Origin: an uncultured Muribaculaceae bacterium
Lineage (GTDB): Bacteria > Bacteroidota > Bacteroidia > Bacteroidales > Muribaculaceae
Assembly: GCA_947625935.1 (NCBI GenBank)
Contig: CANQQE010000013.1
Span: 1-63,564 of the forward strand
Length of the DNA stretch: 63,564 nt
Direction of reading: 5' to 3'
Shown here piece by piece: positions 26,099 to 62,968 of the stretch (its first letter is position 1; each line of letters begins with the position of its first letter). A model generated the notes under the pieces. That model was given only the letters and a program-made list of their open reading frames with translations, did no database searches and had not been told where the DNA came from. A program made the translations under genes and the position numbers.

Positions 26099-26117
26099 TT
26101 TGCCGCTATTATGAAAG
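26086..26117 (+). promoter_or_regulatory. Early promoter-like element (15-base spacer)
   Basis: ATCGCA, 15 bases, TATTAT, GAAAG. The only copy in which the spacer is not 14. It overlaps the 3' end of the preceding gene and its GAAAGGAG tail is the ribosome binding site for 26129. Confidence 0.5.
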
Positions 26118-26128
26118 GAGTGATTAAT

Positions 26129-26944
26129 ATGAAATTTGACAAAATTTTGAAATGCGTTAAAACACTTGATGATTATGCAGAAAGGAATAAGCCTGCTTTA
26201 TTAAGCGGTGCAGCTATCGGTGGGGTACTATTGACGGCTTACTCCGCTTATAAGGCAGGAATCAAAGCAAAAGATATTCTTGAGAACTACAAGAATGATA
26301 AAAAACTTATTGAAGAAGGTGACAAGGAAACTGAAATGGTCGTTAAGAAGGAGTGTGTAGTTGAGATGACTAAAACAGTCCTTCCAACGGTGATATTCGG
26401 AGGAGCGACTATAGCTTGCATAGTTGGTTCAACGGTGGAATCGAGCAGGAGGATTGCAGTATTGTCAGCAGCTTATGCTTTAAGCGAGAAGAAGTCCGAA
26501 AATCTACAAAAAAAGATGGAAGAAGTTCTCGGAAAAGAAAAGGCTGATGAAATTCGTAAGGAAACTCGAAAAGAGGAAGCTGAAAATACACCAAAGCCTG
26601 TTGATGACCCTATGATTCAAGGTAGCGGAAACGTTTGGTGTTATGATGCTGGTCAAGGACGTTGGTTCCGAGTGAAGAATGCAAATGAACTTGAAAGAAA
26701 GATATTGCTATTGTCTCAGATGTGTATGAGCGAGATGTTTATATCTATGAATCAGCTTTACAAAGAATTGGGACTGGATTTGTCAAGTTATGGCGATGAC
26801 TTTGGCTGGAATGTTGATGATTTGGTTGGAGGAAGATTACCAATTGACATAAACGACACAATAATGAACGATGTTGTAGGCGAGCCAGCGATAATTATGG
26901 ATTATAACATAAAGTCCAGAGACGACTATAGAAGATTGTACTAA
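26129..26944 (+). CDS. Two-helix membrane protein (DUF6353-like)
   Basis: 271 residues from ATG 26129, after AAAGGAGTGAT. It has two hydrophobic segments (about 24-40, LLSGAAIGGVLLTAYSAY, and 84-101, VLPTVIFGGATIACIVGS) separated by a charged helix. The C-terminal half is soluble and contains WCYDAGQGRWFRVKNANELERKI. The protein at 32701 has the same architecture. DUF6353 is the family I associate with this design; its function is unknown. Confidence 0.6.
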   Translation: MKFDKILKCVKTLDDYAERNKPALLSGAAIGGVLLTAYSAYKAGIKAKDILENYKNDKKLIEEGDKETEMVVKKECVVEMTKTVLPTVIFGGATIACIVGSTVESSRRIAVLSAAYALSEKKSENLQKKMEEVLGKEKADEIRKETRKEEAENTPKPVDDPMIQGSGNVWCYDAGQGRWFRVKNANELERKILLLSQMCMSEMFISMNQLYKELGLDLSSYGDDFGWNVDDLVGGRLPIDINDTIMNDVVGEPAIIMDYNIKSRDDYRRLY

Positions 26945-27390: not shown

Positions 27391-27410
27391 TCGCTTCCTC
27401 TTTTTATTTT
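27381..27410 (+). terminator. Intrinsic terminator
   Basis: GAGGAAG/CTTCCTC around TAATCG, then TTTTTATTTT. The stem overlaps the stop codon of the preceding gene. Confidence 0.8.
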
Positions 27411-27440
27411 TCGCAAATAAATCCCTTGTTATAATAGAAA
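27410..27440 (+). promoter_or_regulatory. Early promoter-like element (near consensus)
   Basis: TTCGCA, 14 bases, TATAAT, AGAAA, directly after a terminator T tract. Confidence 0.75.
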
Positions 27441-30927: not shown

Positions 30928-31530
30928 ATGAGCGAAGAAAGAAAAAAATTAAAACCTGTAATAACTAGTGACTCGGTTGTTAGTACAAAGACGCCGTTGA
31001 GAAAGAAAATTGCAGGCGCGTTCATCAAAGAAGACATAAAAGATGTGCGTAAGTTCATCATATCAGACTATGTGATTCCGGGTATAAAGGTCGGAATACT
31101 CAATGCTTTGTCGATGATATTTATGGGCGAAGCAATGGGTAAATGGCCTTTTGATGGAAGAAGCGACCGTAGCAAAGGATATTATGACAGAGCAAGTTAT
31201 TCCGACTACTATCGTTCAAGAAGCGGTTACGGATACGACAGCAGAGATCGTGACAGAGATGAATATCGTGGAAAGTTATACAACGAAAAAATGGACTACA
31301 GGAATGTCATACTGAGAAATCGTGATGATGCTGAAAAGATTATTCGTTGTATGCACGCGAGAATAGACGAAGCAGGAGCTGTATCTGTTGCTGAGATGTT
31401 CGACCTTCTTGATATTTCAACCTCATACACAGACAACAATTGGGGATGGAGTAGTCACAGAGACATAGGAATCAAACGAATCCCAGCAGGATATTTGATT
31501 GACGTAACGGAAGCGAGGTATATAGGATGA
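30928..31530 (+). CDS. Early protein with Asp/Arg/Tyr-rich linker, unknown
   Basis: 200 residues. It has an N-terminal helical part with one amphipathic or membrane-prone stretch (YVIPGIKVGILNALSMIFMGEAM), a disordered SYSDYYRSRSGYGYDSRDRDRDEYR linker (about 90-115), and a C-terminal domain (NVILRNRDDAEKIIRCMHARIDEAGAVSVAEMFDLLDI). I recognise the design from gut phage genomes, but no function is assigned. Confidence 0.6.
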   Translation: MSEERKKLKPVITSDSVVSTKTPLRKKIAGAFIKEDIKDVRKFIISDYVIPGIKVGILNALSMIFMGEAMGKWPFDGRSDRSKGYYDRASYSDYYRSRSGYGYDSRDRDRDEYRGKLYNEKMDYRNVILRNRDDAEKIIRCMHARIDEAGAVSVAEMFDLLDISTSYTDNNWGWSSHRDIGIKRIPAGYLIDVTEARYIG

Positions 31531-31847: not shown

Positions 31848-31878
31848 TTCGCAAAGATTTCCTCTGATAATATAGAAA
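31848..31878 (+). promoter_or_regulatory. Early promoter-like element
   Basis: TTCGCA, 14 bases, TAATAT, AGAAA, starting at the stop codon of the preceding gene. Confidence 0.7.
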
Positions 31879-32700: not shown

Positions 32701-33642
32701 ATGGATTTAAAAGCATTAATCAACAAAACAAAATTTAAGCTTGAGGAGAATTCACCTGAGATATTGTTAGGTGTGTCAATCGGTACGATGTTGTGGTCGA
32801 TTGTGTCAGCGGCAAAAGGAACGGTTAAGGCTGCTGATATTTTGGAAGTGCACAAGACTGAGATGAGCCAGATAAGAGAGCTTCGTCAGCTGTCTGAGGA
32901 TGCGAGTGTTGAAGAAGAGTTCCGTCCGCAGTATGATGAGAAGATCTACAAGCAGGATTTGCTCGTGACATATAGCAAGACTGTGATTGGTGTTGCAAAG
33001 TCATATGCCCCTGCAATCGCTTTAGGCGGCCTTAGTATCGCTTGCGTGCTTGCTGCAAGGAATATTATGTCGAAGCGATATTTGGGGCTTCTAGCGGCTT
33101 ATAACGGCGTTACAGAAGCATTCAGTGCGTACAGACAGCGTGTTATAGATGAGCGTGGTGAGATATATGATAGGCACTATATGTATGGTACAGATTTGAA
33201 AGAGGTTGAGGTTACGACTGTCGATGAGAACGGTAAGAAGCATAAGGAGAAGGAAGTTGTAGAAGAATTTGATCCGAGCAAAATTCATATTCCTTCTGCT
33301 TTTGGTTTTGTGCTCGACCGGACCAATCCGAATTGGGATGACAACATCAATCTCCTGTTCTTAATGCTTCAGGGCAGGCAAATTGCTTTAAATGACGCAC
33401 TGAAAAGTAAAGGTCATTTATTTTTGAATGAAGCGAGAGAGATATTTGACTTACCAGCTGTTCCAGAAGGTCAAGTTGTTGGTTGGGTTGATAACGGACA
33501 ATTAGGAGACCAGGTGCTGTTTGGTGTTACTGAGAAAGCTTGGGAAGACCAGAAGAAGATGTATGCAGAAGGCAAAATTGACAGTCTGCTAATTGAATTT
33601 AACATTAATCCAAAGAATGCGGTGATAATCAACAGGATATGA
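32701..33642 (+). CDS. Two-helix membrane protein (DUF6353-like)
   Basis: 313 residues. Hydrophobic segments at about 20-37 (EILLGVSIGTMLWSIVSA) and 103-121 (APAIALGGLSIACVLAARN) flank a charged helix. The C-terminal soluble domain contains FGFVLDRTNPNWDDNINLLFLMLQGRQIALNDALKSKGHLFLNEA. Same architecture as the product of 26129. Function unknown. Confidence 0.6.
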   Translation: MDLKALINKTKFKLEENSPEILLGVSIGTMLWSIVSAAKGTVKAADILEVHKTEMSQIRELRQLSEDASVEEEFRPQYDEKIYKQDLLVTYSKTVIGVAKSYAPAIALGGLSIACVLAARNIMSKRYLGLLAAYNGVTEAFSAYRQRVIDERGEIYDRHYMYGTDLKEVEVTTVDENGKKHKEKEVVEEFDPSKIHIPSAFGFVLDRTNPNWDDNINLLFLMLQGRQIALNDALKSKGHLFLNEAREIFDLPAVPEGQVVGWVDNGQLGDQVLFGVTEKAWEDQKKMYAEGKIDSLLIEFNINPKNAVIINRI

Positions 33643-37401: not shown

Positions 37402-37432
37402 TTCGCAAAAAATTATCTCCTTATAATAGAAA
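37402..37432 (+). promoter_or_regulatory. Early promoter-like element (near consensus)
   Basis: TTCGCA, 14 bases, TATAAT, AGAAA. Confidence 0.75.
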
Positions 37433-46832: not shown

Positions 46833-46850
46833 ACCTGGCTCTTTATTATT
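46821..46850 (+). terminator. Intrinsic terminator
   Basis: GAGCTGGGT pairs with ACCTGGCTC (with G-T pairs) around TAA, then TTTATTATT. Confidence 0.7.
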
Positions 46851-46879
46851 CGTAAAGAAATACCCTCTTATAATAGAAA
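46849..46879 (+). promoter_or_regulatory. Early promoter-like element
   Basis: TTCGTA, 14 bases, TATAAT, AGAAA; one mismatch to TTCGCA. Confidence 0.7.
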
Positions 46880-47163: not shown

Positions 47164-47186
47164 GCCTTGTGCTCTTCCTTTTTTTT
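47155..47186 (+). terminator. Intrinsic terminator
   Basis: AAAGG...CCTTT with inner GAGC/GCTC, then TTTTTT. Confidence 0.75.
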
Positions 47187-47215
47187 CGCAAAATAATACT
47201 TTCTTATAATAGAAA
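47185..47215 (+). promoter_or_regulatory. Early promoter-like element (near consensus)
   Basis: TTCGCA, 14 bases, TATAAT, AGAAA, joined to the preceding T tract. Confidence 0.75.
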
Positions 47216-47457: not shown

Positions 47458-47488
47458 GAGTTGGGTTTTATCCCGACTCCTTATTTTT
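47458..47488 (+). terminator. Intrinsic terminator
   Basis: GAGTTGGG/CCCGACTC around TTTTAT, then CTTATTTTT. Confidence 0.8.
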
Positions 47489-47517
47489 CGCAAAAGTTTC
47501 CTGTTATTTAATGGAAA
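47487..47517 (+). promoter_or_regulatory. Early promoter-like element upstream of the tRNA-like RNA
   Basis: TTCGCA, 14 bases, TTTAAT, GGAAA. Transcripts starting just downstream would open with the tRNA-like fold at 47527. Confidence 0.7.
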
Positions 47518-49617: not shown

Positions 49618-49648
49618 TTCGCAAAAATTTCTTCTTCTTTAATAGAAG
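49618..49648 (+). promoter_or_regulatory. Early promoter-like element (last copy)
   Basis: TTCGCA, 14 bases, TTTAAT, AGAAG. As at 42490, a terminator-like hairpin follows immediately. Confidence 0.65.
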
Positions 49649-49685: not shown

Positions 49686-49704
49686 GTTATTCGAGGTGAT
49701 AAAT

Positions 49705-50001
49705 ATGAGAGAATCGGAATTCCAGAAAACAATAAAGAGAAAAATAAAAGACAGATTACCAGATTCAATCATATTAAAAAATGATCCAAACTGTATTCAG
49801 GGTGTTCCAGATTTGCTAGTTTTATGGCAAGACAAATGGGCAGCTTTAGAATGCAAGAGATCGAAAAAAGCATCTCGCAGACCAAATCAAGAATATTATG
49901 TGAATAAAATGAACGAGATGGCTTTTGCTTCTTTTATATTTCCAGAGAATGTTGGTGAGGTATTGGATGCAATGGAACAATCATTCAAGAGAGGTACCTG
50001 A
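49705..50001 (+). CDS. VRR-NUC type nuclease
   Basis: 98 residues from ATG 49705 (GAGGTGAT upstream; the GTG at 49696 lies inside that site). The core GVPDLLVLWQDKWAALECKRS gives the PD-(D/E)xK pattern of VRR-NUC: Asp of PDL, then E-x-K. Length is normal for stand-alone phage members. Probably acts on DNA junctions or recombination intermediates. Confidence 0.8.
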   Translation: MRESEFQKTIKRKIKDRLPDSIILKNDPNCIQGVPDLLVLWQDKWAALECKRSKKASRRPNQEYYVNKMNEMAFASFIFPENVGEVLDAMEQSFKRGT

Positions 50002-50539
50002 AGGATCACACGCATTTCTAGGTGCTTCTAAGTATTCGTGGTTAAATTATACCGACGAACAAATAGCAGAGGCTTATGCTAATTATTTAGCAATAAAGAG
50101 AGGAACTGAATTACACGCCCTTGCTAGAGATCTTATAAAACAAGGAATCCCATTGAGAGATACCAAACATACTTTTAATATGTATGTTAATGATTGTGTG
50201 TTCTATGGAATGAAACCAGAAGTTCCTCTATATTATTCTAAATATTGCTATGGAACGGCGGACGCTATAAGATTCCTAGACGAAGATAGAAAACTTATGA
50301 TATTCGATTTGAAGACGGGTAAAAATCCCGCCTCTATGAAGCAGTTGATTATTTACGCTGCTTTATTTTGTCTCGAATATTCTGACGAGTTTTCGCTAAT
50401 GAGAGCTATTGAATTACGGAAATACCAGAACAATGATATTGAAATATACACTCCTGAAATAAATGAGATCGTTCCTGTTATGGACAAAATTGTATATTTT
50501 GATAAAATATTAACGAAACTTGACAAAGGGGATCGGTAG
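49967..50539 (+). CDS. PD-(D/E)xK exonuclease, RecB/Cas4-like
   Basis: 190 residues from ATG 49967 (GGTGAGG 6 bases upstream), overlapping the VRR-NUC gene in another frame. RGTELHALARDLIKQG supplies the N-terminal His, and YGTADAIRFLDEDRKLMIFDLKTGK gives the G-T-x-D ... D-x-K-T active site. KQLIIYAALFCLEY follows as in RecB-type nucleases. No 4Fe-4S Cys cluster is visible, so it is not a typical Cas4. Likely role in recombination or DNA end processing. Confidence 0.75.
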   Translation: MQWNNHSREVPEGSHAFLGASKYSWLNYTDEQIAEAYANYLAIKRGTELHALARDLIKQGIPLRDTKHTFNMYVNDCVFYGMKPEVPLYYSKYCYGTADAIRFLDEDRKLMIFDLKTGKNPASMKQLIIYAALFCLEYSDEFSLMRAIELRKYQNNDIEIYTPEINEIVPVMDKIVYFDKILTKLDKGDR

Positions 50540-50541
50540 CT

Positions 50542-53391
50542 ATGTATTATGAAGACGAGCTTATGCACGTTGGCGTTGCTCACGATGCTAATCCACCAGG
50601 AAGAGGTTCTGGAAGATTTGGATATGGAACTGGTGAAAATCCAGGACAACGTGATTTTACATTTACTTCTCAGGTTAATAAGTATCGTGAAGCCGGTCTT
50701 AAGGATGGAGAAATTGCAAAAATTCTGTTAGGTCCATACGCGACGTCAAATAACCTTAGGGCAAAGCTTTCTATCGAGTCCTCTGAGCAAAGAAAATTAA
50801 ATATTGAAAAGGCAATGGAACTCTACCAAAAAACTGGTAACAAATCAGAAGTTGCCAGGATGATGGGCGTTAGAGAATCTGTTGTTAGATATTGGTTAGA
50901 TCCGGCTGTAAAAGACCAAAATACGAAATATGAGAACACAGCAAATGCAATAAAAGAAGTAATTAAAAGACACGCTAACGACGACAGCAAAGGTATGATC
51001 GATGTTAGTAAAAGTACTGAATTATATTTGGGAGTTACTGACAATACCAAAAAAGTTGCACTTGCTATGCTTCAAGAAGAAGGATATTTAGTTACAACAA
51101 CTAAAATACCAGCTGGTAATCACGAAATAAAAATTAATGTGGTTGCACCTCCTGGTACTACTTGGTCGGATGTTCAAAAGAATAAATTTAATATTGCGCC
51201 AATAGACACATTCTCACCAGACAAAGGGAAGGAATGGTTTGTACCTGAATCCCCGCAGTCAATAGATTCTAAGAGAATCTTTGTAAGATATGGCGATGAA
51301 GGCGGAAAAGCAAAAGATGGTGTAATAGAATTAAGAAAAGGTGTTGATGATCTTAACCTTGGAAACAGTCAATATGCTCAGGTTAGAATTTCTGTTGATG
51401 GGACTCATTATATGAAAGGTATGGCTATATACTCTGATGATGTTCCCGAAGGTTATGATCTAATTTATAACACAAATAAGGCTCACGGAACTCCTTTAGT
51501 TTCTAAAGACGGAGGTAAAGAAGTTCTTAAACCTATGAAAGTTAACGAAGCGACAGGAGAAATAGACCAGAACAATCCGTTTGGTGCGTTGATTAAAGGG
51601 CCAAAGAATGTCGATGGTGTTCTCACTGGAGCTGGTCAGTCTCACTATGTGGACAAAAATGGCAAAACTCAGTTATCTGCTATAAACAAGATAAGAGAAG
51701 AGGGAGATTGGGACACTTGGTCTAGAAATTTGTCAGCCCAGTTCCTATCAAAACAACCTTTGAAACTTATTAATCAGCAGATTGATTTGTCAGTTAGTCA
51801 AAAGAAATTGGAACTTGAGGAGATAAATTCTTTAACAAATAAAGTAATCAAAAAGAAATTGCTTGAAGATTATGCAGCAGAATGTGATAGAGCAGCTGCT
51901 GACTTGTCGGTTAAAGGATTTAAGAACCAGGCTTATCAAGTTCTGTTGCCTTTAACATCGATAAAAGATGACGAAGTATATGCACCAAACTACAAACAAG
52001 GAGATTTAGTTGCTCTTGTTAGGTATCCTCACGCTGGTACATTTGAGATACCTTTACTTAAAGTAAACAATGAACTAGCAGAAGGTAAGACTGTAGTTGG
52101 TAATTCTAAAGATGCTGTTGGTATAAACACAAAGGTTGCGAAACAGCTTTCAGGAGCAGACTTCGACGGCGACTTCGTCGCTGTAATACCAGTAGCTTCC
52201 AATAAACTTGGATTAAAAGCTACAAAGCCATTAAAGGATCTTGAGAACTTCGATCCGGACATATACTCACTACCAGATTCAGTACCCAAAGTTAAGCATA
52301 GAACTATGCAGAACGAGATGGGTAAAGTATCTAATCTTATAACTGATATGACTATAGGTGGAGCTACTAACAACGACATAATCAGAGCTGTTAAACACTC
52401 AATGGTTGTGATAGACTCAGAGAAGCATCACTATGACTACAAGAAGTCAGCACAAGACAACAACATCTCTCAGTTAAAGAAGGATTACCAGGGTAGAGCT
52501 GATGCTGGTGCCTCAACTATAATCTCTCAGGCCGGTGCTAATAAGAGAATACCTGAACGTAGAGAGATAACAGATACCTATAAGATGACACCGGAGGAGC
52601 TAGAGATATGGAACCGTGGGGATAGAGTATTCAGAGAGACCGGACGACTAATAAAGAAAAAGATAACAGACCCAGCGGATATGACAGAGGATGAACTTAA
52701 ACTGCACAATGCTGGAAAGAAAGTGTATAGAACGACAAATAAACTTGCGTTGACTGAAGTAAATGGTATGGATACCGTATCAGATGCAAGAGACCTTGTT
52801 CGAGATAAGACTAATCTAAAAGAGATGGCTTATGCCAGATATGCTAATGATCTAAAAGATATGGCTAGGCAAGCAAGGAAAGCTTCTCGTTCTATAACAC
52901 CTGACAAAGTCAACCAAGAGGCCAAGAAGGAGTATACCCCCGAGATAGCTGACCTAGAAGCGCAATTGAGGACTGCTCAGAAGAACAATCCAAGAGAACG
53001 TACAGCCCAGACTATGATGAACCTTAAGTTTAACGAGGTATGCGAATCAAACCCAGGTATGGACTACGAACACAAACAAAGAGAGAAAGCTCGTATCTTG
53101 AACGAATGTAGAGCAGCTGTTGGTGCTCATAGAGAAGAGATACAGATTTCAGACAGACAATGGGAAGCAATACAAGCAGGAGCAATTACTCATAACAAAG
53201 TTCGTGAGATCTTGCTTAATACAAATCAAGATAAGTTTAAGCAAAGAGCAATGCCAAAGAAGAACAATAATGAGTTAACCCCTGCCCAAGCTTCTTATTT
53301 ACGTAGTATGCTAGCTTCTGGAATGTTCACCAATTCAGAGATTGCTGATCGTTTAGGTGTTTCAGTATCAACAGTTATCAATTACAAATAA
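50542..53391 (+). CDS. Double-psi beta-barrel RNA polymerase-like protein with virion-type tag
   Basis: 949 residues. The active-site signature A539-D-F-D-G-D544 is preceded by VALVRYPHAGTFEIPLL (R494-x-P496) and followed by FVAVIPV. This has the same layout as the catalytic barrel of RNAP beta-prime (NRAPTLHR ... NADFDGDQMAVHVPL) and of single-chain QDE-1/YonO-type polymerases. N-terminus DELMHVGVAHDANPPGRGSGRFGYGTGE resembles the tag of virion proteins downstream. Helix-turn-helix-like segments lie at about 50-75, 90-122 and 918-949. It lies between replication and packaging genes. Best guess: a DNA-dependent RNA polymerase, perhaps carried in the virion. A DNA-binding protein with a decayed barrel is the alternative, but the triad is intact. 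Confidence 0.7.
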   Translation: MYYEDELMHVGVAHDANPPGRGSGRFGYGTGENPGQRDFTFTSQVNKYREAGLKDGEIAKILLGPYATSNNLRAKLSIESSEQRKLNIEKAMELYQKTGNKSEVARMMGVRESVVRYWLDPAVKDQNTKYENTANAIKEVIKRHANDDSKGMIDVSKSTELYLGVTDNTKKVALAMLQEEGYLVTTTKIPAGNHEIKINVVAPPGTTWSDVQKNKFNIAPIDTFSPDKGKEWFVPESPQSIDSKRIFVRYGDEGGKAKDGVIELRKGVDDLNLGNSQYAQVRISVDGTHYMKGMAIYSDDVPEGYDLIYNTNKAHGTPLVSKDGGKEVLKPMKVNEATGEIDQNNPFGALIKGPKNVDGVLTGAGQSHYVDKNGKTQLSAINKIREEGDWDTWSRNLSAQFLSKQPLKLINQQIDLSVSQKKLELEEINSLTNKVIKKKLLEDYAAECDRAAADLSVKGFKNQAYQVLLPLTSIKDDEVYAPNYKQGDLVALVRYPHAGTFEIPLLKVNNELAEGKTVVGNSKDAVGINTKVAKQLSGADFDGDFVAVIPVASNKLGLKATKPLKDLENFDPDIYSLPDSVPKVKHRTMQNEMGKVSNLITDMTIGGATNNDIIRAVKHSMVVIDSEKHHYDYKKSAQDNNISQLKKDYQGRADAGASTIISQAGANKRIPERREITDTYKMTPEELEIWNRGDRVFRETGRLIKKKITDPADMTEDELKLHNAGKKVYRTTNKLALTEVNGMDTVSDARDLVRDKTNLKEMAYARYANDLKDMARQARKASRSITPDKVNQEAKKEYTPEIADLEAQLRTAQKNNPRERTAQTMMNLKFNEVCESNPGMDYEHKQREKARILNECRAAVGAHREEIQISDRQWEAIQAGAITHNKVREILLNTNQDKFKQRAMPKKNNNELTPAQASYLRSMLASGMFTNSEIADRLGVSVSTVINYK

Positions 53392-53426: not shown

Positions 53427-53678
53427 ATGGATGGGGATTTTATGCTTTCAACTTATGATAACCCTTTTAATCCATTTGATGACTTTGTTAGATGGATGAA
53501 AGAAGATCTGAGGCTAAGGCACGACTGTTGCGGGTACCTAGCTAGAGAAGCTATGACATCTGACGTTGCTGATGAAGAAGCAAATGATTCAGCAGTTGTT
53601 GAAGCAGCAAAAAGAATAGTTTCAAGAGAACCAACAATTTATAGAATAGTCTATCAAAAAGATTTTGTACAAACATAA
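53427..53678 (+). CDS. Small conserved phage protein, unknown
   Basis: 83 residues after AAAGGAAG. LSTYDNPFNPFDDFVRWMKEDLRLRHDCCGYLAREA is a pattern I associate with small proteins near packaging genes of gut phages. Helical; no function known. Confidence 0.6.
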   Translation: MDGDFMLSTYDNPFNPFDDFVRWMKEDLRLRHDCCGYLAREAMTSDVADEEANDSAVVEAAKRIVSREPTIYRIVYQKDFVQT

Positions 53679-54915: not shown

Positions 54916-55300
54916 AGACGTAAGTTTGAGTATACTGCAATGCACAAAGAAAATGCTAGGACTTCTACCGGAGATGAAAGAATTCGACGTAGATATCTTA
55001 GCATTAATTAATTCTGCGATGTTCACTTTATTCGAGATAGGTGTCATACCAAATGGTGTTAATTACTCAGTAAAAGATGAGGACACACAATATACAGACA
55101 TATTTAGTGGTAAGAATTCTGACGAGATCATCTCAGCTGTTAAGACTTACATTTTTATTAAGGTAAAACTTGGATTCGACATAACGACAACCCCAAGCTC
55201 CGTAATAGACGCTTACGAAAAGATGGAGAAAGAATTGGAATGGCGGTTAAGTGTTCTTGTCGACCATAATGATACGTTTGATGAGGAGGAGAGTAAATGA
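54905..55300 (+). CDS. Head-tail connector (gp6-like)
   Basis: 131 residues. ILQCTKKMLGLLPEMKEFDVDILALINSAMFTLFEIGVIPNGV...AVKTYIFIKVKLGFDITTTPSSVIDAYEKMEKELEWRL is the helical pattern of gp6-like connectors of Clostridium-type phages. These rings sit under the portal. Here the gene lies before the terminase, away from the other neck genes. Confidence 0.65.
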   Translation: MDNRDVSLSILQCTKKMLGLLPEMKEFDVDILALINSAMFTLFEIGVIPNGVNYSVKDEDTQYTDIFSGKNSDEIISAVKTYIFIKVKLGFDITTTPSSVIDAYEKMEKELEWRLSVLVDHNDTFDEEESK

Positions 55301-56109
55301 ATCAGTTTGAAAATTTTTACGAAAACTTAAACACTCCTTTGTCAAATGAACAAACCACTTATTTACCGTGTGTACTCGCATCAGAACTCTACCACCACGG
55401 AATCCTTGGACAAAAGTGGGGAGTAAGAAGATACCAGAATAAAGACGGAAGTCTTACCGAAAAAGGTCGTAAAAGATATTTGAAAATGCGAGATCGGGGA
55501 AAGCCATTAACTGAAGAAGACGATGAAGCTTACAAGAAGTCTATGGTAAAAGCTTTGAGATCTGGTAAAGCTAAAGAAATTGCAAAATTCAAGTACGATT
55601 TGGATAGACCGGAAATTGAAGAAGCTATCAGAAGAATCGACACTTACACAAAGCTTGGAGATGCCGAAAGATGGGAAAAATCCGGTCTAAGAAAAATTGA
55701 GAGGGCTTCAAAGAATCTTAAGATAATAAACGACGCGGCAACTGTCGGAATAGATGCTTATAAAAATTACAAGAGAATAAGTAATGTTCTAAACGGCAGA
55801 CCAATAAATTATGGAATAGAGAAGAGTAAAGACAAAGACGATGATTCAAAGGAAGAGAAGAAAGAAAAGAAAAAAGAGCAATCCAGAGACAACAGTAGTT
55901 CCAGAAACCAGTCTACCAGGACAGGCTCTTTAAGCTTGGGTGAACGTCGAAGAATTTTGGAATCATTGTCCAACAGTAGCGATAGAGAAGCACAGAGACT
56001 TCGAGAAATAAGGAGCCAGAGTCGCGGTCAAAGTTTAAGCTATCCGGAAAATCTTAGTTTAAGTGAAAGAAGGAGACTTCTAGATGAATTAATGAGAGGC
56101 CTTAACTAA
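55297..56109 (+). CDS. Tagged virion-type protein 1
   Basis: 270 residues. After a 28-residue lead comes the tag [33 protein letters not shown] (about 29-62). A helical domain follows (to about 175), then a Lys/Asp/Glu-rich and Ser/Arg-rich disordered region. The C-terminus has two related units, SLSLGERRRILESLSNS and NLSLSERRRLLDELMRG. The tag is widespread in phage proteins near head genes; its function is not established as far as I know. Start overlaps the connector stop. Confidence 0.65.
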   Translation: MNQFENFYENLNTPLSNEQTTYLPCVLASELYHHGILGQKWGVRRYQNKDGSLTEKGRKRYLKMRDRGKPLTEEDDEAYKKSMVKALRSGKAKEIAKFKYDLDRPEIEEAIRRIDTYTKLGDAERWEKSGLRKIERASKNLKIINDAATVGIDAYKNYKRISNVLNGRPINYGIEKSKDKDDDSKEEKKEKKKEQSRDNSSSRNQSTRTGSLSLGERRRILESLSNSSDREAQRLREIRSQSRGQSLSYPENLSLSERRRLLDELMRGLN

Positions 56110-56127: not shown

Positions 56128-57870
56128 ATGTCACTTTCAAATACTGCCGTGCCAAAATACTATGGACAATTCAGAGATGCTGTTATAAGGGGCGAAATTC
56201 CAGTATGCTCCACAATTTCGATGGAGATGAACAGAATCGACGACCTTATACGGAATCCAGGAGTTTGGTACGACGAAGATGCAGTTGAAGGATACATTCG
56301 TTTCTGTGAAAATGAGCTTACTCTTACTGACGGAAGTGACTTGCATCTTTTAGACAGCTTTAAACTATGGGCTGAGGAAATTTATGGTTGGTATTACTTC
56401 GTAAATCGTAGTGTGTACGTGCCTAACAAAAAAGGCGGAGGAAGATACGTAAGAAAGAGTATCAAAAAACGTCTTGTCAATAAACAGTATTTAATAGTAG
56501 CAAGAGGCGCTGCAAAATCTTTGTATGCTTCTTCTCATCACGGCTACGGGTTAACCGTTGACACGTCTTCGACCCACCAAGTTTGCACAGCACCAACTAT
56601 GGATATGGCTGAAGAGACTATGAACCCACTTAGGACTGCCATAGCAAGATCCAGAGGTCCTTTCTTTAAATTTTTGACAGAAGGTTCTTTACACAACACA
56701 ACTGGCGATAGGTCTTTAAGACAAAAATTGGCATCCACAAAGAAGGGAATAGAATGCACGATCACAAATTCGCTTCTTGAGGTTCGTCCAATGTCAATAA
56801 ACAAACTTCAGGGTTTAAGAAACAAGTATTCATCTGTTGATGAGTGGCTGTCAGGTGATACAAGAGAAGATGTCGTTGGCGCTTTGGAGCAAGGAGCTTC
56901 AAAAATTGATGACTACTTAATCTTGGCTACGTCATCAGAGGGAACTGTAAGAAACGGCATCGGAGATGCTATGAAAATTGAGCTTATGCAGATCCTTAGA
57001 GGAGAGTACATAGCCCCAAACGTTTCTATATGGTGGTACAAACTCGACGATGTTAAAGAAGTACCAGATCCTGAGATGTGGGCTAAGGCAAATCCAAATA
57101 TTGGTATAACAGTTAGCTACGAAACCTACCAACTGGACGTTGAAAGAGCAGAGCATTCACCAGCGTCACGAAATGATATTTTGGCAAAGAGATTCGGAAT
57201 ACCGATGGAGGGCTACACGTACTTCTTTACTTATGACGAGACGAAACCGCATAAAGAAAGAAGTTATTGGCAGATGCCTTGCTCGCTCGGAATAGACCTT
57301 TCTCAGGGGGATGACTTCTGTGCTTTTACTTTTATGTTTCCTTTACCAAGGGAATGCTTCGGTATAAAGGTGAGGTCTTATATTTCTGAGAGAACTATGA
57401 TGAATCTCCAACCAGCAATGAGATTGAAGTATCAGGAGTTCATAGACGAGGGGAGTTTAATAGTTCTTCCTGGGACCATTCTTGATATGAATGACGTTTA
57501 CGACGATCTTGATAATATGATTGTAAATTTTGGTTATGATGTCAGATGTGTTGGATATGACCCGTACAATGCAAAAGACTTTATAGCAAGATGGTCTAGT
57601 GAGAACGGACCTTTCGGAATCGAGAAAGTAATCCAAGGAGCAAAAACAGAATCTGTTCCTTTGGGCGAACTTAAAAAAATGGCAGCAGACAGACTTCTGT
57701 TATTTGATGAAGCTCTTATGTCTTTTGCTATGGGAAACTGTGTCGTTCTCGAAGACACAAACGGTAACAGGAAACTATTTAAGCTACGATCAGACCAGAA
57801 GATAGACAACGTATCCGCGATGATGGATGCTTTCGTAGCTTATAAGCTTAATAAAGATGCTTTTGAATAG
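56128..57870 (+). CDS. terL: Terminase large subunit
   Basis: 580 residues. ATPase: R126-GAA-K130-S131 as a deviant Walker A, Walker B SSV-D238-E239, then the coupling region LATSSEGTVRNG. Nuclease: GI-D390-LSQGDD, GY-D478-PYN and MM-D567-AF as the three acidic metal ligands. Full-length for the HK97/P27-type family. It packages the genome into the prohead through the portal, with the small subunit at 54036. Confidence 0.95.
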   Translation: MSLSNTAVPKYYGQFRDAVIRGEIPVCSTISMEMNRIDDLIRNPGVWYDEDAVEGYIRFCENELTLTDGSDLHLLDSFKLWAEEIYGWYYFVNRSVYVPNKKGGGRYVRKSIKKRLVNKQYLIVARGAAKSLYASSHHGYGLTVDTSSTHQVCTAPTMDMAEETMNPLRTAIARSRGPFFKFLTEGSLHNTTGDRSLRQKLASTKKGIECTITNSLLEVRPMSINKLQGLRNKYSSVDEWLSGDTREDVVGALEQGASKIDDYLILATSSEGTVRNGIGDAMKIELMQILRGEYIAPNVSIWWYKLDDVKEVPDPEMWAKANPNIGITVSYETYQLDVERAEHSPASRNDILAKRFGIPMEGYTYFFTYDETKPHKERSYWQMPCSLGIDLSQGDDFCAFTFMFPLPRECFGIKVRSYISERTMMNLQPAMRLKYQEFIDEGSLIVLPGTILDMNDVYDDLDNMIVNFGYDVRCVGYDPYNAKDFIARWSSENGPFGIEKVIQGAKTESVPLGELKKMAADRLLLFDEALMSFAMGNCVVLEDTNGNRKLFKLRSDQKIDNVSAMMDAFVAYKLNKDAFE

Positions 57871-57879
57871 GTGATATTT

Positions 57880-59613
57880 ATGACTTACGAATCAGAACTT
57901 TACCACTATGGGCGAAAAGGTATGAAATGGTATCAGCATATTTACGGTGAAACAGATTCAAGAGCTAAATATTCAATACCGAAAAATACAGAAAAAAATA
58001 TTGGTAAGTGGGGTAAGAGAAGAGATAAGAATGTCTTGTACATAGCCGGATATAGTGGATCCGGAAAAAGCACATTGGCTGAAAAAATAGCAAAGAAGAA
58101 TAATGCAGAAGTAATAAATTTAGATCATTTCTTCGAAAAGAAAAATCAAAAGTACATAAAAGATGGAGATTTCAAAAATTTTATAGAAAAGGAAGTACCA
58201 GATTATCTTAATATGGCTGATAGAAACTTTTTTAAAGATAATATTAAGGAATGGGGAAATCTCGTTGACAGATTTGCTGGTGGAATACAAAAGTATGGGG
58301 AACAGCAATTCTTAAAACAAAAGAAAGTTATAGTCGAGGGAGTTCAGATTGCAGACGGAACGCTTATACCAGATTTATCTTATTATTCAAAGGTCCCAAC
58401 CATATTGGTTGAAACACCAAAAGATGTCTCTATGAAAAGATCCGCATCTAGGGACAGTAACATAAATGACAGAATAGCCGACTACGATGCCTATGAAAAG
58501 AGATTAAACGAATTTAGAAACATTATTAACAATAAAATTATTGAGAAAAAATTAGGCTCATTTAACAAAAGATCCATAAGTCAGGATCAAATAAAAGAAT
58601 TGAAGACGAAACAACCGAATCTTAAGCATATTAAAACAGGCGCTAACACTCGAGGCTTTATATTCACAAAGAATGGAGAACCTCAAGCAGTTATAAACAC
58701 AGAAAAGAAACAAGACGGAATTTGGATTCAGGGACTCGAAGTATTCGAAAAGGCCAAAGGTCAAGGTCTTTCTTATGAGTTACTAGATGTGGCAACAAAA
58801 GAGTTAGGAGCTACTAAGTTGTCTGTTAATAAAAGGAATAAGATTGCAAAAAATATTTATGACAAATACGGATTTGAAACTTTTAAAGAGGATGATAGTA
58901 TGTATTATATGAAAAAAGAAAATGAATTAAAACATTATGATTCAGAACTTTACCACTACGGAATCCTCGGAATGAAATGGGGTGTAAGACGTTATCAGCC
59001 ATATCCATCTGGATATTCTGGAAATGGAAAAGAGGTGGGAGACGCGGCTGTAGCTGCAAAAGCAAATAAAATAGCAGTAGCAAATTTTAAAAAAGCTACT
59101 TTTGAGTTGGATTCAAAAGATGAAAATAAAAGAAAAGAAGCCATAGAGCAAATGGATAGGGCGTTTAAATATATGAAAGAAGGCACAGATGTTAAGGACC
59201 TTTATATAAAAACACTCAAAAGAGACGAACAAATTACAGGAGCTGTTAGATCAGCGGCAATAGTAGCAGGATTGACCGTCGCTAGATTTGCTTTAGGCTC
59301 TGTTGGAGAAAAAGCCGTTTCGTCGGTAGTCTCCAACACAAACGTAGGCGAAAAAATAATTGATAAAGTTGTTAAACAGAATAACATTACCATCGGAGGA
59401 GATACAGTTACTGGAAAAGTAGCAAAAGCATTGAAACAAAGTAGGGATTATGGAGATATATTCGAAGAAGTTCCTAGTAGATATTCAGATAGTTTAGAAT
59501 TCTTAACGGGTAACGGATCAATGTCTTTGTATGCGTTAAATGACGCCCAACTTACAGAGCTGTCTCGAAAAGCTACAGTGTTTGCTGACATAATGAAACC
59601 GAAGGGCTATTAA
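57880..59613 (+). CDS. Tagged P-loop kinase - GNAT acetyltransferase - tagged helical protein (fusion)
   Basis: 577 residues from ATG 57880 (GGTGAT upstream). Tag 1 [21 protein letters not shown] at 4-24. P-loop kinase about 50-230: Walker A G57-YSGSGK63-ST, then INLDHFFE and [15 protein letters not shown] about 250-347: the acetyl-CoA loop [12 protein letters not shown], then the strand [17 protein letters not shown]. Tag 2 [19 protein letters not shown] near 354-373, followed by a helical and hydrophobic domain like that of the product of 61072. Two enzymes and two tags in one chain suggest a polyprotein or fused virion effectors. Substrates unknown. Confidence 0.7.
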
Positions 59614-59625
59614 AGGGTGATAAAA

Positions 59626-60273
59626 ATGAGTCAATTACAACATTCAGCCAAGGGAACTTCTTGGACCAAAAAAGATCATAAATACATCAAGAAGGAAAAT
59701 GGCAAATACTATTATAGACCAGAAAGTTACAAAACAGAGAAGGATAAGGATTCTTCCTCTGACCAAACCAGTGACAAATCAAAAAGTTTATTAAGACCAG
59801 AATTAACAGATTTCTATATGAAGAACCAAGTTCCGAGGGGCGATATGGCTGGAATGGTATGGATAGGAACAGACAAAGAATCCGGAGCCCAGATGTATAT
59901 GTATCCCAATGGCTATAGAGAAAAATTGAAAAAAGAGCGTTATAAGGAATATCCATCAAAAGCAGGAGAGGCTATCAGGAACACCAGTGACAATATTATG
60001 AACGGGGCTAAGGCTTTGGGCAAGGCAATAAACAAGCTTTCTGAAGTAACAATGACGAAGGATTACGTTACTATACAGAACGAACAAGGCCAGCGTGTTA
60101 TGATACCGAAAAAAGAGATTGATGAGTACACCGAGTTGTACAAGAAGAGCACTGGAAAAGATGTTCAAATAGTTCATTCAGCAAAAGGTACGACTTGGTC
60201 AAAAGAAGATCATAAGTACATCAAGAAGGTAGATGGCAAGTATTTCTACTCTGTAAAAAAAACGCCAATGTGA
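59626..60273 (+). CDS. Virion-type protein with HSAKGTTW tags at both ends
   Basis: 215 residues from ATG 59626 (AAAGGGTGAT upstream). The N-terminal LQHSAKGTSWTKKDHKYIKK and C-terminal IVHSAKGTTWSKEDHKYIKK are near-identical copies of about 27 residues. The middle contains DFYMKNQVPRGDMAGMVWIGTDKESGAQMYMYPNGYREKLKKERY and a helical region. Related in style to the ELYH tag proteins around it. Function unknown. Confidence 0.65.
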   Translation: MSQLQHSAKGTSWTKKDHKYIKKENGKYYYRPESYKTEKDKDSSSDQTSDKSKSLLRPELTDFYMKNQVPRGDMAGMVWIGTDKESGAQMYMYPNGYREKLKKERYKEYPSKAGEAIRNTSDNIMNGAKALGKAINKLSEVTMTKDYVTIQNEQGQRVMIPKKEIDEYTELYKKSTGKDVQIVHSAKGTTWSKEDHKYIKKVDGKYFYSVKKTPM

Positions 60274-61071: not shown

Positions 61072-61725
61072 ATGGATTACGAATCAGAACTTTATCATTA
61101 TGGAATCCTCGGAATGAAATGGGGTATAAGACGCTATCAGCCGTATCCAGATGGACAGAAGAAAGGGAAAGAGATCGGCGAAGCAAAATTAGCTAAAATG
61201 AACGAAAAAATAGCTAAAAGGAATCTTAAGAAAGCAGCTTTTGAAAGAACATCTAAAATTCCAGACGTTTACGATAGAGCAATGAGTGAGATTTCTCAGG
61301 CTAAAAAGATAATAGGCAAGGACCAGGTTGAGAGAATAATGAACAAGGAAATTGCTAGGGATACGACAGTTACAAAAGCTGTGTTAACAACCGCTCACGT
61401 TGCCAGAGCAGCTTATCTCGGAACTTTTGTTTTGGGTTCTTTGTCAGGAGCCATAACACGAGTCACAGTAAGTGCTATGGAGGGAATTATTAACAATCCA
61501 CAAGTTCAGCAAGCTGCTGGTGCTGCTCTAAAAGCCCTAGCCGCCAATCCAAACGTAGAGCAGTTAATAAGAGATGCTGGATTAAAATGGCTTTCGCAAA
61601 CAAGTGGTTATTCAGAAGCGGAATTACTTAATAGTGCTAGTTATCTTAATGACGGTATAAAGGCTTACAATGCAGCTTTGGGCGATCAGTATGGTTATCA
61701 CGTACCAACAATTCCAGGAGTTTAG
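61072..61725 (+). CDS. Tagged helical-hydrophobic virion-type protein
   Basis: 217 residues. Tag [25 protein letters not shown] at 4-28. A charged helical part follows (AKMNEKIAKRNLKKAAFERTSK), then hydrophobic segments (AVLTTAHVARAAYLGTFVLGSLSG). Paralogous to the C-terminal part of the product of 57880 and to the product of 61738. It could form a membrane-inserting pore on DNA entry; inferred only. Confidence 0.65.
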   Translation: MDYESELYHYGILGMKWGIRRYQPYPDGQKKGKEIGEAKLAKMNEKIAKRNLKKAAFERTSKIPDVYDRAMSEISQAKKIIGKDQVERIMNKEIARDTTVTKAVLTTAHVARAAYLGTFVLGSLSGAITRVTVSAMEGIINNPQVQQAAGAALKALAANPNVEQLIRDAGLKWLSQTSGYSEAELLNSASYLNDGIKAYNAALGDQYGYHVPTIPGV

Positions 61726-61737
61726 GAGGGTTAATAA

Positions 61738-62145
61738 ATGAATAGTAAAGAGTTATATCACCACGGAATTCTTGGACAGAAATGGTACGTGCGTAGATAC
61801 CAACCCTATCCTGATAACTACGATGGAAAAGGACGTTATATCGGCGGCAACAAGTGGGATGTCAAAAGAAAGAATAAAATAGAAAAAGTTGCAAAGTACA
61901 ACACGAAGAAAGCAGCTTTTGATATAAAGTCCAAGGATAAAGATCGTCGTAAAGAAGGGCAAGAGCAGCTAAACAAAGCAATGAAGATAATTGGTGATCG
62001 GCAGATTCAAGAGATCATCAAGAAAGAGAGAGCTAAGGACACAGCCATAACGATCTACGGAGTTGCGACAGCCGCTAGTACGACATTTATGGTAGCCAAA
62101 GCAATCCAACAGGCAGCTGTGGCAGTTGCAAATGTGTTAATTTGA
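61738..62145 (+). CDS. Tagged helical-hydrophobic virion-type protein (short paralogue)
   Basis: 135 residues. Tag [24 protein letters not shown] at 4-27, then the KAAF-containing helix and a C-terminal hydrophobic stretch (ITIYGVATAASTTFMVAKAIQQAAVAVANVLI). A shortened version of the product of 61072. Confidence 0.65.
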   Translation: MNSKELYHHGILGQKWYVRRYQPYPDNYDGKGRYIGGNKWDVKRKNKIEKVAKYNTKKAAFDIKSKDKDRRKEGQEQLNKAMKIIGDRQIQEIIKKERAKDTAITIYGVATAASTTFMVAKAIQQAAVAVANVLI

Positions 62146-62158
62146 ATGAGTGATATTT

Positions 62159-62968
62159 ATGTATACTTCGGAACTTTACCATTACGGTCGGAAGGGTATG
62201 AAATGGTACCAGCATATTTATGGCGAAGAAGATTCAAGAGGAAAATACAACAAATATGTCGATGAATATAATAGTCTCCCTTTGCAGATCAAGAAACGTA
62301 TCAAAAAACACTATAAAGAATTAGAAAATTTTAAAAACCCAGAAGATAAAGAGCTTAAAACAAAACGCCATACAGTGCCAAAAGGAACAGTTTTAAAATC
62401 GTATCGAGATGACAATACTGGCGTAATGAGAGCAGTGTATAAAGATCTCGATTCTGATTTCTTAAAAGGTCCTTTAAAAGCTTATAAAGAAAGAACGTTT
62501 ATTACTAACAGACCTCTTGTCATTGCCGGAAAAAAAGAGCTAAGAGAAGAAATAATGAAAATATATAACAAAGAGCTAGAAAGAACTCTTAAAAAAGTTG
62601 CGAAACAGAAGGTAAAAGATGATTTTGGTCCTTTTTCAAACAAAGAACTAACTTATAAGGAGTATTATAAAATAGTAATGAACGACATAACAAGAAATAC
62701 AGTACAGAATTTGGAAGCATCACCAAAAACCAAAAAACTTCTGATAGAAAATTTAAGATCTCAGGGGTATGACGGCTTTACAGAAATAGGATTGTCGACG
62801 GATTCCGCGGATTATACTGATCCTTTGGTACTGTTTGAAAACCCAGCGAAATCGTCAATAGCTGGGTCGCCATATAGATACAAAGATAGTCGTGAAGTAT
62901 CGAAGAAAGAACAAGAATTATCTGAAAAGAAATACTACGAAAAACGTTATAATGAACATAATGACTAA
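62159..62968 (+). CDS. Tagged protein with ADP-ribosyltransferase-like domain
   Basis: 269 residues from ATG 62159. Tag [27 protein letters not shown] at 4-30, nearly identical to tag 1 of the product of 57880. The rest (VPKGTVLKSYRDDNTGVMRAVYKD ... LIENLRSQGYDGFTEIG ... TDPLVLFENPAKSSI) resembles the ART-like domains in phage head and polyvalent proteins, where a GYDG...VLF block closes the fold. I cannot identify a catalytic Glu with confidence. Likely a delivered host-modifying enzyme. Confidence 0.5.
   Translation: MYTSELYHYGRKGMKWYQHIYGEEDSRGKYNKYVDEYNSLPLQIKKRIKKHYKELENFKNPEDKELKTKRHTVPKGTVLKSYRDDNTGVMRAVYKDLDSDFLKGPLKAYKERTFITNRPLVIAGKKELREEIMKIYNKELERTLKKVAKQKVKDDFGPFSNKELTYKEYYKIVMNDITRNTVQNLEASPKTKKLLIENLRSQGYDGFTEIGLSTDSADYTDPLVLFENPAKSSIAGSPYRYKDSREVSKKEQELSEKKYYEKRYNEHND

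Follow-up and report, generated by a model that had tools for sequence, protein, structure and literature searches.

The stretch of DNA analysed here (the window) is contig CANQQE010000013.1 in its full length of 63,564 bp, part of a 3.69 Mb bacterial genome. It holds a nearly complete tailed-phage genome that is cut within the head genes, the right end being open in a portal-like gene and the left end lying inside a head maturation protease/capsid gene. We describe three features of this phage: an open reading frame (ORF) at 50542..53391 for a predicted single-chain RNA polymerase, a short N-terminal tag which this protein partly shares with proteins encoded around the terminase and portal genes, and a promoter-like element that is repeated on the plus strand 5' of the polymerase gene (Table 1).

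An earlier note on this DNA had called the ORF product polymerase-like and had placed an ADFDGD motif at residues 539-544. We confirmed this motif together with its flanks, RYP at 494 before it and AVIPV at 547 after it, and found D540, D542, D544, R494, P496, H497, K292 and K330 identical in 45/45 aligned sequences. The profile of phrog_4291, which is annotated as "RNA-dependent RNA polymerase" (category DNA, RNA and nucleotide metabolism), matched residues 4-948 (E 4.9e-276), so that the family match extends over the full length. Two of the three helix-turn-helix (HTH)-like segments described in the earlier note were recovered at residues ~83-120 and 912-948 (Pfam, below cut-offs). The third, near 43-75, stayed weak, with a profile match to 2lvs (E 0.003) that covers two HTHs, plus predicted helices. 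Across 45 family members, Pfam matches at E≤0.01 were to RdRP (PF05183) in 17 (best E 3.9e-6), to HTH_23 in 44 and to Sigma70_r4_2 in 39, counts that carry positions for the window protein only.

The AlphaFold2 model of the protein had a mean pLDDT of 83.2 and a pTM of 0.70, with residues 1-36 below 50. When it was compared with the PDB by Foldseek, 19/19 matches with E≤0.001 were QDE-1 or plant RDR2 (best E 1.5e-9, probability 1.00), and the matches that followed at weaker E values were Pol IV, Pol II and bacterial RNA polymerase subunits. The top match in BFVD was a phage protein named 'RNA dependent RNA polymerase'. This comparison, which the earlier note had proposed, supports the two-barrel class by way of QDE-1 and RDR2; the placement of the two barrels, and any role of K292 and K330 in them, are tentative assignments from model strands and invariance. 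A phmmer search of PDB sequences with the single window protein gave no match, and the family profile found HTH chains and designed helical proteins among them, and no polymerase catalytic chain. QDE-1 is therefore beyond the reach of sequence alone. Membership of the YonO family (phrog_8308) was rejected (hhalign probability 3.1), with YonO assigned to phrog_8308 and the window protein to phrog_4291.

The polymerase begins with MYYEDELMHVGVAHDANPPGRGSGRFGYGTG, in which L7-x-H9-x-G11 is followed by SGRF. H9, G11, S23, G24, R25, G29 and G31 were invariant in 45/45 aligned polymerases, and a hydrophobic-x-H-x-G before SGR[YF] was present in 67/67 polymerase N-termini. The latter came from 63 loci (window copy included) and four named phages, some of them near-identical; L004, L013, L048 and L061, whose frames are open at the contig end, and the fragments L068 and L069 (<300 amino acids) were omitted. 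In the window, a tag of the form E-L-Y-H-[YH]-G-[IR]-[LK]-G-[MQ]-K-W occurs in the proteins starting at 55297, 57871 (twice), 61072, 61738 and 62150. The claim that the polymerase starts with the tag of this virion cassette held for the first half (L-x-H-x-G) and failed for the second half and for Pfam DUF7211 (PF23847), which, of eight window proteins scanned, matched three (57871 and 61072 above the cut-off, 55297 below it) and not the polymerase. With the first 11 cassette columns, the best-scoring segment lay at the N-terminus in 60/67 polymerases. An hhalign comparison of tag segments gave probability 92 and E 6e-7, an optimistic E value because the segments were cut out around the tag.

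Similar tags were found in at least one protein between a connector-type gene and the portal in 9/9 named phages, all picked for carrying the polymerase: Count (5 tagged proteins), Circum (2), Secretariat (4), Scarif (4), BitterVaud1 (2), P092 (2), FP_oengus (1), ReqiPoco6 (6) and 1706 (1). The ReqiPoco6 polymerase starts with VLINEDDYLAHYGILRRSGRYPWGSG, and the six proteins of this phage between the terminase large subunit (TerL) and the portal start with forms of xxFLAHYGVKGMKWG. An intermediate was found in L223, a 211-amino-acid frame 3' of TerL with a polymerase-type tag, MNEIVWLSHGGPGSGRYPKGSG; a wider tag pattern run over the fetched loci revealed no other intermediate. As a query at E≤1, the 26-residue cassette tag of the window (61072-61149) matched 233/50,697 phage records: Arthrobacter 95, Gordonia 55, Streptomyces 54, Bacteriophage 7, Lactococcus 6, Rhodococcus 4, Microbacterium 4, Curtobacterium 4, Faecalibacterium 2, Caudovirus 1 and one more. 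Compared by name-group counts rather than record by record, tag and polymerase were equally frequent in Arthrobacter, Gordonia, Streptomyces, Rhodococcus, Microbacterium and Faecalibacterium phages. At this sensitivity and by name group, the tag thus appears to be a clade signature, matched in clade phages and a few unclassified records only. Literature searches on DUF7211 or on the tag spellings found no paper in the library searched.

Some tag matches lay within genes annotated as RNA ligase, in Gordonia phages BluerMoon (PV251866, 9819-9887) and Mossy (OR195046, 7669-7728), so the tagged proteins may include further enzymes. The tagged window protein at 57871-59613 combines a kinase-like P-loop domain, a GNAT acetyltransferase domain and two L-x-H-Y-G tags in one chain, a multidomain protein of cargo type. 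Beside the tagged proteins, the protein at 59617-60273 carries the element HSAKGTxWxKxDHKYIKK twice, possibly a second kind of tag.

In the record of Lactococcus phage 1706, both orf75 (the polymerase) and orf7 (with two cassette-type tags) are annotated 'structural protein'. The study of this phage reportedly analysed virion proteins. The same label on gp106 of ReqiPoco6 was given by similarity to 1706 and is no second proof. Together with the tag similarity, the orf75 label suggests that the polymerase may be packaged into virions. The 1706 record also labels as structural two small, untagged proteins that are encoded outside the structural block (orf62 and orf71; L070 806-1084 and 5412-5765).

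We looked for the promoter-like element by counting spaced 5-mers in nine polymerase-carrying genomes (the window, 1706, Circum, Secretariat, Scarif, ReqiPoco6, BitterVaud1, P092 and FP_oengus). TCGCA-N4-TTACA-N5-TATAATGAGA is found in Secretariat, Scarif and ReqiPoco6, and close forms occur in Circum and BitterVaud1, with AAACA in place of TTACA in BitterVaud1 and in part of ReqiPoco6. The form in P092 is TTTTACA-TACCC-TATAATGA, that in 1706 is CACATG-TTTTACATACACTATAGTAGAA and that in the window is TTCGCAAA-N12-TATAATAGAAA. FP_oengus has a form of its own that is strongly repeated at ~2-19 kb (L088), CGCGAAAA-N12-TTATGG, which may be its version of the element. The core of the 1706 element, ACACTATAGTAGAA (L073, 24-43 kb), resembles the SP6 promoter core, probably by convergence.

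At ≥15/20 identical positions, the nine genomes had 71 plus-strand and two minus-strand matches, compared with ~2 per strand expected from order-2 shuffles. Sixty letter-permuted motifs gave a mean of 6.0 and a maximum of 13 matches on both strands versus the 73 observed. Thirteen matches were perfect (Secretariat 7, Scarif 3, ReqiPoco6 3); BitterVaud1, in which ribosome-binding-site words led the dyad counts, had six consensus matches and FP_oengus two. On the map the matches follow the tail genes, lie among small genes and precede the right-end genes, which places nearly all of them in the non-structural half. Three weak in-gene matches that look false (Circum 22231, BitterVaud1 40459 and FP_oengus 36343) are still counted in the 71. 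A window consensus, derived from the window itself, had 15 plus-strand and one minus-strand matches at 24.8-49.6 kb, compared with 0-3 per shuffled sequence in ten runs.

Polymerase relatives were also present on contigs C19 and C21 of the same bacterial assembly, which thus has three contigs of this clade (the window being C13); the two polymerases are 42-55% identical to that of the window. On C21, a second phage in this genome, 11 plus-strand and no minus-strand sites of the form CGCR-N14-TATRT were found, and C19 had two in the first 40 kb, the part scanned of its 56 kb. Zero counts for Secretariat and Scarif under patterns of the CGCR-N14-TATRT type were dismissed as a pattern artefact, since such patterns miss GAGA-type sites.

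To relate the element to the polymerase, we searched viral contigs for the exact 20-base pattern, with no protein query involved. It was found in at least 120 viral-contig stretches (80 loci listed), compared with none for a box-swapped pattern. Among the loci listed, 34/47 distinct contigs of ≥20 kb carry the polymerase, three of them only as short or weak matches, and so do 21/22 contigs of ≥40 kb, the exception being G034. Element and polymerase were on the same strand in 34/34 contigs, as read by eye and assuming that the loci keep the contig orientation. Ten of the 13 contigs lacking the polymerase carry the TerL of the clade and may be fragments.

A 49-base query around one Secretariat element matched 189/50,697 phage records at E≤1. 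Counted by the first word of the record name, element and polymerase were equally frequent in Gordonia (55), Streptomyces (54), Siphovirus (12), Rhodococcus (4) and Caudovirus (2) records, and the element was less frequent than the polymerase in Arthrobacter (61/95) and Microbacterium (1/4). No match was obtained in Lactococcus or Faecalibacterium phages, whose elements differ, in Curtobacterium phages, whose element was not examined, or in any other group.

With a limit of E≤1e-3, relatives of the polymerase itself were present in 250/50,697 phage records, and in 249 of these the match covered ≥80% of the query. Among the relatives listed (the 40 best and 60 spread rows), the majority go by the name of helix-turn-helix, DNA-binding or hypothetical protein; some are called RNA-dependent RNA polymerase, one is a putative RNA polymerase and two have the name structural protein. 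The polymerase was also found on 65 viral contigs and on 135 genome stretches (80 kept), many of them titled Lachnospiraceae or Oscillospiraceae. TerL and the primase-PolB protein had nearly the same distribution (251 and 253 phage records), at an E limit of 1e-100 versus 1e-3 for the polymerase, which marks the polymerase as a hallmark of a single clade, with Lactococcus phage 1706 among its members.

Table 1. Features of the window, with coordinates in bp and the basis of each assignment
Position	Strand	Feature	Basis
27410..27440	+	Promoter-like element, 19/19	Consensus TTCGCAAA-N12-TATAATAGAAA
29491..29521	+	Promoter-like element, 17/19	Window consensus
31848..31878	+	Promoter-like element, 17/19	Window consensus
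37402..37432	+	Promoter-like element, 19/19	Window consensus
46849..46879	+	Promoter-like element, 18/19	Window consensus
47185..47215	+	Promoter-like element, 19/19	Window consensus
47487..47517	+	Promoter-like element, 17/19	Window consensus
49618..49648	+	Last window element, 17/19, 5' of the endonuclease-exonuclease-polymerase run	Window consensus
49696..50001	+	Endonuclease, first gene 3' of the element at 49618..49648	phrog_93
49961..50539 (ORF listing: start 49925)	+	Exonuclease, immediately 5' of the polymerase gene	phrog_3953
50542..53391	+	Predicted single-chain RNA polymerase, two-barrel class, 949 amino acids, ATG start, phrog_4291 family	Profile match, alignment, predicted model, Foldseek
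50542..50649	+	N-terminal tag, residues 1-36, L-x-H-x-G ... SGRF-x-x-GTG, predicted disordered	Invariant residues, pLDDT <50
50662..50901	+	N-terminal HTH region, residues 41-120	Pfam HTH_29/HTH_28 at 90-120 below cut-off; model helices
51277..51699	+	Putative first barrel (DPBB-B), residues 246-386, with invariant K292 and K330	Model strands, invariance
51931..52194	+	Putative second barrel (DPBB-A), residues 464-551	Model strands; PF05183 RdRP at 529-649 below cut-off
52156..52173	+	ADFDGD metal-binding motif, residues 539-544, presumably within the second barrel	Invariant aspartates
53281..53385	+	C-terminal HTH, residues 914-948, sigma-70 region 4-like	HTH_7, HTH_23, Sigma70_r4_2 at 914-945
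55297..56109	+	Tagged protein (LYHHGILGQKWGVRR), just 5' of TerL	Tag pattern
56128..57870	+	Terminase large subunit	phrog_9, PF20441
57871..59613	+	Tagged protein, P-loop and GNAT domains, two tags	Pfam, tag pattern
61072..61725	+	Tagged protein	Pfam, tag pattern
61738..62145	+	Tagged protein	Tag pattern
62150..62968	+	Tagged protein, variant tag	Tag pattern

Elsewhere in the window, the ORFs at 26111-26944 and 32701-33642 encode DUF6353 proteins, function unassigned, for each of which BLAST gave matches in every one of the eight other genomes.

Our findings are probably best explained by a virion-delivered, promoter-specific single-chain RNA polymerase of a 1706-like tailed phage that serves early transcription. 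The ORF product would be a single-chain, two-barrel, DNA-dependent RNA polymerase, and its N-terminal tag would route it into the maturing head, as with the other tagged proteins around the terminase and portal genes, to be ejected into the cell together with the DNA. There, the fused HTH segments would read a phage promoter composed of a CGCA box, a TTACA box and TATAAT-GAGA (TTCGCAAA-N12-TATAATAGAAA in the window), and the presumed early genes at ~24-50 kb, including the run that ends in the polymerase gene, would be transcribed without a host sigma factor. A promoter that stands before presumably early genes and, in the window, also before the polymerase run would pose a start-up problem, which delivery in the virion would solve. 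The early role proposed in the earlier note gains support from the position of the element almost wholly in the non-structural half; that the genes behind it are early we infer from the map.

Several observations count against this explanation. The Foldseek TM-scores were low (0.24-0.33 by query length) and the root-mean-square deviations large. The only virion evidence is the label of a single record (1706 orf75). DUF7211 did not list the polymerase at E≤1, and all 20 cassette columns peaked at the N-terminus in only 43/67 polymerases; set against the 60/67 obtained with 11 columns, this means that the likeness is strong in LxHYG and weak after it, and we discarded the whole 20-column match and kept that of the first half. 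The element forms differ, the window and FP_oengus lacking the TTACA box and P092 the CGCA box. At least five of the 22 contigs of ≥40 kb seem to be isolated phages and are thus apparently not independent of the genomes from which the motif was taken. Since polymerase, TerL and PolB occur about equally often (250, 251 and 253 records), an attempt to separate the polymerase from its clade failed, and shared ancestry within the clade may account for the association of polymerase, tag and element, which is inseparable from it.

Two other accounts of transcription in these phages have to be weighed, both of which we regard as unlikely. In one, the polymerase is made in the cell and used later, with the tag tying it to heads or being a leftover, and the host polymerase makes the early RNA. 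The single-chain enzyme YonO indeed transcribes the late genes of SPbeta according to the available text of PMC5467207, and the polymerase gene adjoins the packaging side of the map. Late use is difficult to reconcile with the plus-strand matches that were set against annotated genes, which are located past the tail genes and not in the structural block, with two exceptions, both weak (15/20), in a tail gene of Circum (22231) and in a gene shortly before TerL of FP_oengus (36343). Moreover, YonO has no sequence similarity to the window protein, falls into a different PHROG and has an N-terminus lacking the tag. In the other account, host sigma-A recognises the element as a promoter, which a conserved phage activator bound to the CGCA and TTACA boxes switches, and the polymerase is otherwise employed. 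Sigma appropriation is known from T4 MotA. The element holds a perfect sigma70 -10, with exact TATAAT in many copies, but a TTGACA-like -35 at 16-18 bp from TATAAT (≥4/6) was no commoner than at random positions (3/71 sites versus ~12%), conservation extends past the -10 through GAGA, and forms of the element occur in phages of both low-GC Lactococcus and high-GC Streptomyces. Candidates for an activator would be the function-unassigned window proteins with relatives in all eight other genomes (e.g. 26111-26944, 30928-31530, 32701-33642 and 53427-53678), and in the 1706 record orf47 is given as a putative positive regulator of sigma, orf64 as a putative transcriptional regulator. A Pfam scan of eight window proteins revealed neither a sigma factor nor an HTH; sigma factors and further RNA polymerases were not searched for across all nine genomes. 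The sigma70 -10 reading is also that given for a motif in Gordonia phages, discussed below.

That the enzyme is instead a true RNA-dependent or primer-making polymerase, acting in replication or defence, appears highly improbable. Its nearest folds are QDE-1 and RDR2 and its PHROG bears the name RNA-dependent RNA polymerase, but solved QDE-1 entries include, by their titles, complexes with DNA templates, and a primase-PolB protein, with relatives in each of the eight other genomes, is already encoded by the phage. The fused sigma-region-4-like and other HTHs point to recognition of double-stranded DNA.

For virion delivery and early transcription to hold across the clade is an even bet: more than 200 phages of Firmicutes and Actinobacteria would share one conserved polymerase-promoter pair and start early transcription independently of host sigma factors, and, with the chances balanced for the two statements jointly, a short-tagged, HTH-bearing polymerase shipped in the head would read forms of this promoter in hosts from Lactococcus to Streptomyces. 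The gene in question is named "helix-turn-helix protein" in many laboratory phages of soil and dairy bacteria. If it encodes a virion polymerase with a promoter of its own, these phages contain a small self-contained transcription system in which a polymerase is delivered without fusion to a giant protein, and which offers a handle on the role of the L-x-H-Y-G tags. Promoter finding by single-chain two-barrel enzymes, a point that the YonO paper, in the text available, left open (PMC5467207), could then also be tested directly.

The element has probably been reported before. In the available text on Gordonia phages Vardy (PMC9671010) and Conley (PMC10868162), an intergenic motif of 50 bp and 43 bp, respectively, with TATAAT and five copies per phage is read as a sigma70 -10. 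This motif is probably the same element, as the Vardy record matches our 49-base query at seven places; what differs is the five copies per phage, the sigma70 -10 reading and, in the same portions of both papers, the missing link to a polymerase. The portions available of PMC5559632, PMC13313380, PMC7302621, PMC9753662 and PMC5513430 likewise draw no link between motif and polymerase, those of PMC5512222 and PMC4155818 hold nothing on the polymerase family, and a literature search with the motif letters returned no phage work among the titles listed. New here are the forms of one element common to nine polymerase-carrying genomes.

Two-barrel phage polymerases as a kind, and their delivery in virions, are already known (PMC10770324, PMC5467207 and PMC7281927, as far as their available text goes). 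Among known systems, Lactococcus phage 1706 orf75 in phrog_4291 belongs to the same family over its full length, bears LQHYGTKRHSGRYPWGSG close to the N-terminus and has the label structural protein, but is ~35% identical to the window protein over the matched part; in the records and the parts of the literature examined, no statement links a tag or promoter to it or to phrog_4291. QDE-1 and RDR2 are the best structural matches, and PF05183 is found in 17/45 phage family members, but they are eukaryotic RNA-interference enzymes and are not known to have a tag or fused HTHs. YonO is likewise a single-chain polymerase, from a Firmicute prophage and with a D-x-D-x-D motif (DNDGD), and differs in its undetectable sequence similarity, its PHROG, the lack of such a tag and its late-gene role (PMC5467207, in part). 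Comparable, too, are the virion RNA polymerases gp66 of crAss-like phage phi14:2 and gp96 of Thermus phage P23-45, which would share the single-chain two-barrel class and for which delivery with the DNA for early genes has been proposed in the text available of PMC10770324. These are fused to large proteins or to the tape measure, whereas the polymerase described here is a 949-amino-acid enzyme with a short tag and HTHs of its own.

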